DNA from: an uncultured Verrucomicrobiales bacterium
GTDB lineage: Bacteria; Verrucomicrobiota; Verrucomicrobiia; Verrucomicrobiales; DEV007
DNA: 64,000 nt
Direction of reading: 5' to 3'
Assembly: GCA_943789025.1 (NCBI GenBank)
Contig: CALSSN010000002.1
Location: 1 to 64,000, forward strand
Part shown: positions 54,068 to 57,137 of the stretch, one piece after another
Layout of the letters: each line of letters begins with the position of its first letter
Position numbering within the stretch: position 1 is the stretch's first letter
The notes under the pieces: generated by a model
Told to the model about the DNA's origin: nothing
The model's input: only the letters and a program-made list of their open reading frames with translations
Database searches by the model: none
Made by a program: the position numbers and the translations under genes

Positions 54068-54772
54068 ATGGCATCCAGGTATCGAAAAAGCGCGAGCAAC
54101 CGAGAGGGCAGGGTCTTCCGCAGGGTGTGCCGGATGCTTGTCATTCTGGTGCTGGTTTTGATGACGTGGTGGACGAGGAGTGGCGAACCTTTCCTGAAGG
54201 AAGCAGGTGTGGGTTCTCCGGTGCAGGCGCCGAGCGCGGTCACGCCATCCGTGAAGGGAGATTACCAGGTGCTTCGAGGTGCCCGGCTGATCAGCCACCG
54301 GAGCAATGATGGCGATAGCTTTCATATCAGTCATGATGGAAGGGATTACGAGATGCGCCTGTACTACGTCGACTGTCCTGAGAAATACATCGCCAAGCAC
54401 AATGCGAAGCGTCTCGGTCACCAGGCACGCTACTTCGGCGGGATCGGCTTGGATGAGGCTGTCGGTGTGGGATTGGAAGCGAGGGAGTTTACGCGGGGTC
54501 TTCTGGAGGAGGGATCCTTTGAAGTCTTCACGCGGTGGGAGGGAGTGTATGGGAACGAGCGTCACTACTGTTTCGTCATCCTCCGAGATGGAACGCATCT
54601 TTCGGAATTGCTCGTCGAAGAGGGACTGGCCCGGATTTATACGAAGGGTGAGCCGACTCCGGACGGGCGGAAGGTCAAAGAGTTCAAAAAGCACCTGAAA
54701 GAACTGGAGTATCGAGCGAAGAAAGCTGCCAGGGGTGCCTGGGGAATCAATGCTCCGGCAGGCAGAAGCTGA
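54068..54772 (+). CDS. Thermonuclease-family (SNase-like) protein
   Basis: 234 residues from the ATG at 54068 (MASRYRKS). A membrane anchor lies near residues 20-37 (MLVILVLVLMTWW). The nuclease-like domain has the OB-fold active-site arrangement: NDGDSFHI, MRLYYVDCPE (Arg and Asp ligands), FTRGLLEEGSFEVFTRWEG and LSELLVEEGLARIY. The cofactor residues look complete. A secreted or membrane-bound nuclease. It ends 20 bp before tgt, so it is probably transcribed with the core operon downstream. It is divergent from the HtrA-like gene. Confidence 0.85.
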   Translation: MASRYRKSASNREGRVFRRVCRMLVILVLVLMTWWTRSGEPFLKEAGVGSPVQAPSAVTPSVKGDYQVLRGARLISHRSNDGDSFHISHDGRDYEMRLYYVDCPEKYIAKHNAKRLGHQARYFGGIGLDEAVGVGLEAREFTRGLLEEGSFEVFTRWEGVYGNERHYCFVILRDGTHLSELLVEEGLARIYTKGEPTPDGRKVKEFKKHLKELEYRAKKAARGAWGINAPAGRS

Positions 54773-54791
54773 GGTTTTGAGAAGCGCTACC

Positions 54792-55925
54792 ATGTTTTCA
54801 ATCGAAGCAAAAGACGAAGACTCATCGGCAAGAGCGGCTGTCCTCAAGACGCCGCACGGTCCCGTTCTGACTCCAGCCTTCATGCCGGTAGGAACCCAGG
54901 GGACTGTGAAATCCTTGCACCCGGATGAGCTGGTGGCTCTCGGGGCACAAATTGTTCTGGGGAATACCTACCACCTCTTTCTCAGGCCTGGGATGGAGGT
55001 GATTGCCGCCATGGGTGGTCTCCACGGCTTCAGCCGCTGGGAGCGGCCGATTCTCACCGACAGTGGCGGATACCAGGTGTTCTCGCTGGCAAAGTTGCGC
55101 AAGATCACCGAGCAGGGAGTGCGTTTTCAGAGTCATCATGACGGCTCCGCATGTTTTATCGGTCCGGAAGAATCGATGGAGATTCAGGCGACTTTAGGTT
55201 CGGACATTGCCATGGCCTTTGACGAATGTCCGCCGTACCCCTGCGAGCGCTCCTACGCAGAGGAGAGTCTTGAGCTGACCTTGCGTTGGGCGCGCCGTTG
55301 CCGCTCCTGGGTCGATGCCAACCAGCCGGTGACCGGGGGAGGAAGACAACAGCACTTCGGGATTGTCCAAGGATCGGTCTATGCGGAGCTCCGGGAGCGC
55401 TCCGCCAAGGAATTGCAAGAGATCGGGTTCGACGGGTATGCGGTCGGGGGAGTGAGTGTGGGTGAGCCTGAAGATGAGATGTTTCGAGCCATCGAGAATT
55501 CGGTTCCGTTTCTTCCCGAGGGAATGCCGCGTTATGCAATGGGTCTGGGAACGCCAGCTCAGATCCTGCAAATGGTCTCCCGGGGGGTTGATATGTTCGA
55601 CTGCGTGATGCCTACCCGGCTCGCGCGGCATGGCACCGCAATGACCTTGGACGGAATGATTAATTTGAAGAACCAGAAGTTCGAAATGGACGCCTCCCCT
55701 CTCGATTCGGTCACTCACCCACTCTGTGAGGGTTTCTCACGGGGCTATATCAGGCATTTGATCAAGGCGAAGGAAATTCTGGGGATGAGGTTGATTTCCC
55801 TCCACAATCTGCATTTCTATCTGTCGCTGCTTGAGCAGGCTCGTGCGGCGATTCTTCACGGAGACTTTTCCTCCTTCCGTGATACTTTCATCGAGCGCTT
55901 TCAATACACATACAAATTACTATGA
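54792..55925 (+). CDS. tgt: Queuine/preQ1 tRNA-ribosyltransferase
   Basis: 377 residues from the ATG at 54792 (MFSIEAKDED). Catalytic features: LTDSGGYQVFSL (Asp90), FDECPPYP (Asp144) and the nucleophile in GVDMFDCVMPTR (Asp270), TRLARHGTA. It swaps guanine for preQ1 at position 34 of GUN tRNAs. The zinc site is unusual: where C-x-C-x2-C is expected, V307, H309 and C312 are found; the later His338 is kept. The stop overlaps the yajC start (ATGA), showing translational coupling. Confidence 0.95.
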   Translation: MFSIEAKDEDSSARAAVLKTPHGPVLTPAFMPVGTQGTVKSLHPDELVALGAQIVLGNTYHLFLRPGMEVIAAMGGLHGFSRWERPILTDSGGYQVFSLAKLRKITEQGVRFQSHHDGSACFIGPEESMEIQATLGSDIAMAFDECPPYPCERSYAEESLELTLRWARRCRSWVDANQPVTGGGRQQHFGIVQGSVYAELRERSAKELQEIGFDGYAVGGVSVGEPEDEMFRAIENSVPFLPEGMPRYAMGLGTPAQILQMVSRGVDMFDCVMPTRLARHGTAMTLDGMINLKNQKFEMDASPLDSVTHPLCEGFSRGYIRHLIKAKEILGMRLISLHNLHFYLSLLEQARAAILHGDFSSFRDTFIERFQYTYKLL

Positions 55926-56305
55926 ACCTGTTTCCCATGACCCCTCTTGCTGCTATCGAATCTTTTTCTCTTCTTCTCGCGCAGGCTGCTCCACGGCCGC
56001 AGGGAGGTCCCATGGATTTTCTTTTCCCCATGCTGATGATGGGGATCATCATCTATTTTCTGATGATCCGTCCTCAGCAGAAAAGAAGCAAGGAAATGAA
56101 GGCGATGCTCGATGGCGTCAAAAGCGGCGACAGTGTGGTGACTGCTGGCGGGATTCACGGCCTGGTAGCGGGAATCAAGGAAGGCACAGTCACATTAAAA
56201 ATTGCAGACAATGTGAAGATCAAAATCGACAAATCATCGATCGGTCGTATTGAGAAAAGCAAAGAAAAGTTGGTGTCCGACGAGGATGCAGAGGACGCGA
56301 GTTAG
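55922..56305 (+). CDS. yajC: YajC, Sec translocon accessory subunit
   Basis: 127 residues. One TM helix (FLFPMLMMGIIIYFLMI), then the family motif RPQQKRSKEMKAML and the cytoplasmic domain with GDSVVTAGGIHGLVAGI. It associates with SecDF at the inner membrane. The start is in the tgt stop (ATGA overlap) and the stop lies 10 bp before the SecD-like lipoprotein. The N-terminus is longer than usual by about 25 residues (MNLFPMTPLAAIESFSLLLA). Confidence 0.95.
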   Translation: MNLFPMTPLAAIESFSLLLAQAAPRPQGGPMDFLFPMLMMGIIIYFLMIRPQQKRSKEMKAMLDGVKSGDSVVTAGGIHGLVAGIKEGTVTLKIADNVKIKIDKSSIGRIEKSKEKLVSDEDAEDAS

Positions 56306-56315
56306 TATCCCCGAG

Positions 56316-57137
56316 ATGCTTTTCTACGCCCAGCTTGTCAGTTCTCGGAGAATGTCGGCATCATTCGCGGCACTTTTGATTTTGCTTTTCGGGCTGAGTT
56401 TCCTATGCACTGGCTGCGAGAAAAGAAAGACTGGTTCGGATGCAGGAGGAGCTGAGTCGGCACGCGAAGTTATCGTGTCGTTCGGCACAAGAAATGGCGT
56501 CAGATTGAAGCCTGAGGAGGTGGAATTCTTGATCAGCTCGGTGCGCAGGCGGTTGATCAAACTTGGTTTCGAACGGGTAGAAGTGAAGGCAGCACGTCCG
56601 CGAGATGAATTGCTGATCGGTTTTGCATCGTCTCCGGCGACCGGAGCACCGGGAGAACTCATGAAGCAGGCGTTCTCACGCCCCGGGCTTCTTGATCTGC
56701 GACGCCTGCACCCAGAGTCCGCAGCTCTGGTAAAAAGTCTCAAGCTTTTTGCCCGGGTAGGCCCGGAATGGACGGTTGCCCGCGATCAGAGAGGCGGCCA
56801 GTTTGTGGTGGGTTGGGAATCCCATTTGAATCCTCGTTACCTTGGCGGAGTGAAAGTCACCCGGTCAGTTTCGGGCGAGGGTTTTGATGTGTCCGTGATT
56901 CTCAGCGCTCAGGGAGTGTTGATGCTTGATGAAGCGAAGGCTGGTATGGCTGGGGGTTCGCTCGCTCTCCTGCTCGACGGCAAAGTACTGGCAGCCCCCC
57001 TCCCACCGATCGCTGCCGCGGACAGGGCCATTCTTGTCAACAGAGGGGTGAGCGAGGCAGAAGCGAGGGAGCGTGCCTTCGCTCTGGAAGCCCCGTTTGT
57101 TGTTCCCTTGCAAATAAAGAGCGAAGGGGCTATGTGA
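56316..57137 (+). CDS. Free-standing SecD-P1-like envelope lipoprotein
   Basis: 273 residues from the ATG at 56316; another ATG at 56352 starts closer to the hydrophobic core. Signal: ALLILLFGLSFLCTGC, a plausible lipobox with Cys and an acidic next residue. The C-terminal 100 residues match the SecD P1 head: FDVSVILSAQGVLMLDEAK, SLALLLDGKVLAAPLPPI, RAILVNRGVSEAEARERAFAL and PFVVPLQI, the same order as in secDF downstream. No further TM helices. It lies between yajC and secDF, so a role with the translocon is likely. I know of no named family. Confidence 0.72.
   Translation: MLFYAQLVSSRRMSASFAALLILLFGLSFLCTGCEKRKTGSDAGGAESAREVIVSFGTRNGVRLKPEEVEFLISSVRRRLIKLGFERVEVKAARPRDELLIGFASSPATGAPGELMKQAFSRPGLLDLRRLHPESAALVKSLKLFARVGPEWTVARDQRGGQFVVGWESHLNPRYLGGVKVTRSVSGEGFDVSVILSAQGVLMLDEAKAGMAGGSLALLLDGKVLAAPLPPIAAADRAILVNRGVSEAEARERAFALEAPFVVPLQIKSEGAM

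Follow-up and report, generated by a model that had tools for sequence, protein, structure and literature searches.

The large periplasmic domain of SecD is known as P1, and proteins of the PpiD/YfgM type are membrane-anchored periplasmic chaperones at the translocon exit. In SecDF, P1 consists of a base (PF21760) and a head (PF22599), as seen in the structures 3AQO, 5YHF and 5XAN. The head is critical in translocation (PMC9508474) and is a predicted docking site for SurA (PMC9987972). We describe here a gene from an uncultured Verrucomicrobiales bacterium, found in a window of 64,000 nucleotides (the whole stretch of DNA analysed), whose product shares full-length homology and a predicted fold with the P1 of SecDF, but stands alone as a protein, has a single hydrophobic segment at its N terminus and lacks the RND bundle, SecF and the proton pathway. 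To the PpiD/YfgM type it would be alike in its proposed mode, a tethered periplasmic domain taking chains at the Sec exit, which is a functional analogy only.

The gene lies in the order tgt-yajC-[P1 gene]-secDF (Table 1), 10 bp from yajC and 33 bp from secDF. This placement between yajC and secDF was already given in the initial annotation, as were the motifs LDGKVLAAP, SEAEARERA and VPLQI, all of which are present in the translation. The gene is real. Its 273-codon frame is stop-free, and, as in the neighbouring genes, its GC content is higher at first than at second codon positions (0.645/0.480/0.575 at the three positions). The start is ambiguous between Met1 and Met13, the latter being a plausible alternative, and for tgt the longest frame opens with GTG and the real start may be internal. 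A scan of both gaps flanking the P1 gene found no terminator-like site, and a promoter scan stayed at chance level. Within its own genome the protein has secDF as its sole other match.

Table 1. Features of the tgt-yajC-secDF locus and of the stand-alone P1 gene (positions in the window)
Feature	Position	Strand	Evidence
tgt (queuine tRNA-ribosyltransferase)	54735..55925	+	ORF; same tgt-yajC-secDF order in most relatives
yajC	55922..56305	+	PF02699 97 bits, TIGR00739 92 bits
Stand-alone SecD P1 paralog, 273 aa (261 aa from Met13, 56352)	56316..57137	+	BLASTP, hhalign, AlphaFold2, Foldseek
N-terminal hydrophobic segment, residues 13-34, MSASFAALLILLFGLSFLCTGC	56352..56417	+	Hydropathy; aligns with SecDF TM1 (BLASTP)
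P1 base N-terminal part, residues 50-104, beta-alpha-beta-beta	56463..56627	+	AlphaFold2 model, SecDF alignment
P1 head, residues 159-258	56790..57089	+	PF22599 match (sub-threshold), AlphaFold2 model
C-terminal beta strand closing P1 base, residues 265-272	57108..57131	+	AlphaFold2 model
secDF fusion, 804 aa	57171..59585	+	TIGR01129 420 bits; TIGR00966

We found that the protein aligns with the adjacent SecDF from residue 3 to 272 at only about 23% identity (BLASTP, E=7e-12), and that an alignment of 28 SecD P1 domains, from which the protein itself was excluded, matches residues 22-271 (hhalign, 98.1% probability, E=8.2e-14); with these E-values a chance resemblance to SecD P1 can be dismissed. 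The initial annotation had assigned the C-terminal domain to the P1 head and proposed a profile comparison of this type, and although the match is real its extent is greater: since homology and predicted fold span both base and head, the protein duplicates the complete SecD P1, though with strong divergence; hhalign and Foldseek both recover this periplasmic domain. The PF22599 head profile scores 16 bits (E=0.011) against a gathering cut-off of 27 bits, a shortfall due to the divergence of the window copy, and stand-alone relatives score above the cut-off (G042, 80.7 bits; G145, 71.8 bits; Roseibacillus SP52, 51.4). TIGR01129, which models SecD, gives 14.5 bits against a cut-off of 244.4. The window copy retains the invariant R79, D221 and P228 but has the usual residue at only 14 of the 28 P1 positions conserved at 85% or more, and its binding may therefore be altered. 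The AlphaFold2 model (mean pLDDT 84; input alignment of 40 P1 sequences) contains the beta-alpha-beta-beta element, the head and the closing strand listed in Table 1. Searched with Foldseek against the PDB, it returned nine matches at E≤0.001, all of them SecDF (3AQO, 5YHF, 5XAN/5XAP/5XAM and 3AQP), with a best E of 1e-10, TM scores of up to 0.58 (query) and 0.71 (target), and an rmsd to the SecDF structures of about 7 Å, for which a different base-head angle in the model could account. Because the model alignment includes SecDF P1 sequences, the structural match supports the sequence match without being independent evidence.

The 273 residues contain a single hydrophobic segment, starting at residue 13 and with a hydropathy maximum of 2.25, and the RND transmembrane bundle is therefore lacking; the protein has neither the six helices nor the proton pathway that go with SecD membership, in agreement with the initial annotation. 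BLASTP places this segment on the first transmembrane helix (TM1) of SecDF (SSRRMSASFAALLILLFGLSFLCTGCEKRK vs RRRLVGSILAIFLSLFCVYCLKTQ), from which we infer that the anchor probably derives from TM1. The lipoprotein-like signal first proposed holds up as an N-terminal membrane-targeting segment, but not as a canonical lipobox: LCTGC, with Cys at -3, is a near miss that fails the PS00013 pattern for bacterial lipoproteins. Judged by its sequence the segment could be a signal peptide, a lipoprotein signal or a transmembrane anchor, with lipidation only one candidate.

A survey of 51 loci from the same order reveals tgt-yajC-secDF as the usual arrangement, and in 34 of the 35 loci where yajC was recognised it is separated from secDF by at most 166 bp with no intervening gene, the remaining locus (G054) being split with the two genes 8 kb apart. 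No ortholog of the window gene was found among 75 genomes of the family, in which the window's genus is represented by one genome (81% complete), and a pattern search with the protein itself found no close relatives in GTDB contigs; a mixed profile lacked any segment with enough conservation to scan a collection. In a plasmid collection the matches were ordinary SecD or unannotated only. The gene is thus not conserved between yajC and secDF, and the suggestion of a lineage-specific Sec accessory subunit fails for the lineage as a whole; the nearest relatives do without the gene, and its absence from the order and family relatives surveyed points instead to a local innovation. Upstream genes in G054, G046, G031, G014 and Akkermansia were inspected by eye and have no relation to P1; they encode proteins that look like alpha/beta-hydrolases, membrane proteins, metallo-hydrolases and polysaccharide deacetylases. 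In family f1 SecDF carries long N-terminal extensions, which we also rejected as fused P1, those inspected being low-complexity, a spurious upstream frame or of no recognisable identity. Separately, SecDF frames of several genomes of this family (L054:805-3891 (-), L050:6943-9723 and L083:518-3199 (-)) carry Ala/Lys/Glu/Thr or Pro/Ala repeats of about 100-250 residues ahead of the first transmembrane segment.

Stand-alone P1 proteins do recur elsewhere in the order. From a profile search of 289 genomes, in which those with more than one match were examined further, and with the loci of named genomes retrieved using SecDF as query, we found full-P1 proteins in eight other genomes (G042, G145, G171, G195, G222, G223 and Roseibacillus sp. 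SP242 and SP52), five of them directly upstream of secDF. The order tgt-yajC-P1-secDF is present in G195, G223 and both Roseibacillus genomes, whose P1 proteins are 50% identical to each other. In G171 the gene directly precedes secDF, and in G042 it lies just ahead of tgt-yajC-secDF; in G145 some 7 kb separate it from the secDF operon, and in G222 it lies elsewhere in the genome, where it encodes a lipoprotein-like copy. At about 258-332 aa these proteins join an N-terminal anchor or signal to a whole P1, and their anchors vary (two transmembrane segments, one, lipoprotein-like or cleavable-signal-like). For the two Roseibacillus P1 genes dN is 0.42 and dS 1.28, against 0.17 and 1.87 for the SecDF pair, and so they are under purifying selection that is weaker than on SecDF. 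G084 has a partial stand-alone P1 at a contig end. We rejected G156, where SecDF is truncated by the contig end, and short frames in G181, G115 and G269, which from their positions alone we read as contig-end SecDF. One Roseibacillus SecDF (L130:6004-8748, 914 aa) has an extra stretch before the GG motif that to the eye resembles a second P1 base (ITISMPGFSQAEAEEVRDQV).

Outside the order, the extra matches that we examined among 150 genomes of the class were head-only, except for one SecDF in two frames. In the single-contig genome G327 (C1:382720-383408) the SecD P1 region runs over two overlapping frames (159 + 563 aa), either a natural split or a frameshift. Dispersed P1 heads appear to be common in the class. 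Several Verrucomicrobiales genomes (G040, G038, G051, G009 and G172) encode, away from secDF, small exported or lipoprotein-like proteins that are mainly a SecD P1 head (L104:4477-4941, L108:3992-4477, L106:4113-4613, L110:5042-5788 (-) and L111:4459-5157 (-)). In other families of the class, P1-head-like matches lie within frames of 1,275-2,640 aa (G313:C28, G298:C4, G290:C45, G306:C10 and G308:C9), with two in one frame of G298, and genus g19, probably Akkermansia, has a frame of about 390-580 aa with such a match, separate from SecDF (G049, G052, G055, G061, G075 and G078).

How the full-P1 copies arose was addressed with a tree of 65 rows and a second tree with more SecDFs. A single clade of stand-alone P1 proteins is rejected on the 65-row tree (AU p=2.8e-7), where the copies of G171 (100/100), G145 (100/100) and G222 (99/95) pair with their own SecDF, that of G042 groups among SecDFs of its own family (100/97), and those of G195 and G223 are nested within their genus; the starred branches require at least six label changes. 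In the second tree the G222 copy lies in a SecDF clade that includes its own SecDF (99/96), and the Roseibacillus copies are placed without firm support. As most stand-alone copies group with the SecDF of their host, detachment appears to have been repeated independently. Separate origins could be imitated by gene conversion between adjacent genes, though less readily for copies distant from secDF. With a branch length of 4.57 the window copy is unsure in its placement, and a position as sister to its own SecDF is compatible with the data (AU p=0.50).

We consider it possible, at somewhat below an even chance, that the window protein is a non-motor, membrane-tethered P1 paralog that assists SecDF/YajC with exported chains, a reading that draws on the homology and predicted fold, on an N terminus of anchor type, on gene order in the operon and on the repeated origin in relatives. 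The gene would have originated when the 5' part of secDF was partially duplicated; TM1 of SecDF would have become the signal or anchor at the N terminus, the remaining motor helices would have been lost, and the gene is probably co-transcribed with yajC and secDF. Its product, presumably exported by Sec and retained on the periplasmic face of the membrane, might then form a passive extra arm where chains leave the SecYEG-SecDF-YajC translocon. This arm may bind the emerging polypeptide, or periplasmic chaperones docking on the P1 head, and would keep the chain or pass it on, uncoupled from the proton motive force. The protein may plausibly work in partnership with SecDF, but adjacency is weak evidence for this, because tandem duplication alone puts a copy there. 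The better argument is that the arrangement has been kept in two Roseibacillus species under purifying selection, and it speaks for those relatives rather than for the window gene. Against an accessory role we count the nearest relatives that do without the gene, the change at half of the conserved P1 positions, the very long branch, and the copies of G222 and G145 outside the secDF operon.

Those same two copies would suit a role for the P1 fold in the envelope outside Sec, for instance in a lipoprotein of the periplasm or outer membrane that binds peptides or envelope partners, and so would the small exported or lipoprotein-like heads away from secDF and the heads within very large frames; nevertheless the window copy, like at least five others, is directly upstream of secDF, and it retains base and head where the dispersed heads do not, which makes such a role rather unlikely here. 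That the gene is instead a decaying by-product of tandem duplication in secDF, drifting without function, fits its restricted distribution, its long branch and the alteration of half of the conserved P1 positions. However, the frame has stayed intact through this divergence, the predicted fold is coherent, stand-alone P1 is retained in several lineages, and the Roseibacillus orthologs are operonic and under purifying selection, and we therefore regard decay as unlikely. VemP, which tunes expression of secD2-secF2 in Vibrio, is a precedent (PMC11470409), and the position immediately upstream of secDF could accordingly suggest a decoy or regulator, which competes with the P1 of SecDF or whose translation or export tunes the downstream secDF. 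This is highly improbable: an arrest peptide needs no folded P1 domain of 220 residues, we recognised no arrest motif by eye, and the copies elsewhere in the genome (G222 and G145) are unable to act in cis.

The P1 domain itself is already known, and what is new is its apparently repeated detachment into operonic, presumably tethered proteins; the literature searched, with most subscription journals outside its scope, gave no description of stand-alone SecD P1 proteins. At present we can only tentatively propose, as something rather less than probable, that in Verrucomicrobiales SecD P1 has been detached repeatedly and independently and retained in the translocon as a tethered accessory subunit without motor function, a convergent and previously undescribed Sec component that would hold or hand off substrates without a proton-driven stroke. 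Stand-alone P1 proteins bear on the role of P1 apart from the SecDF motor, and a natural example beside secDF is material with which substrate or chaperone binding could be separated from proton-coupled pulling. Their occurrence suggests that the periplasmic modules of Sec are evolvable add-ons.
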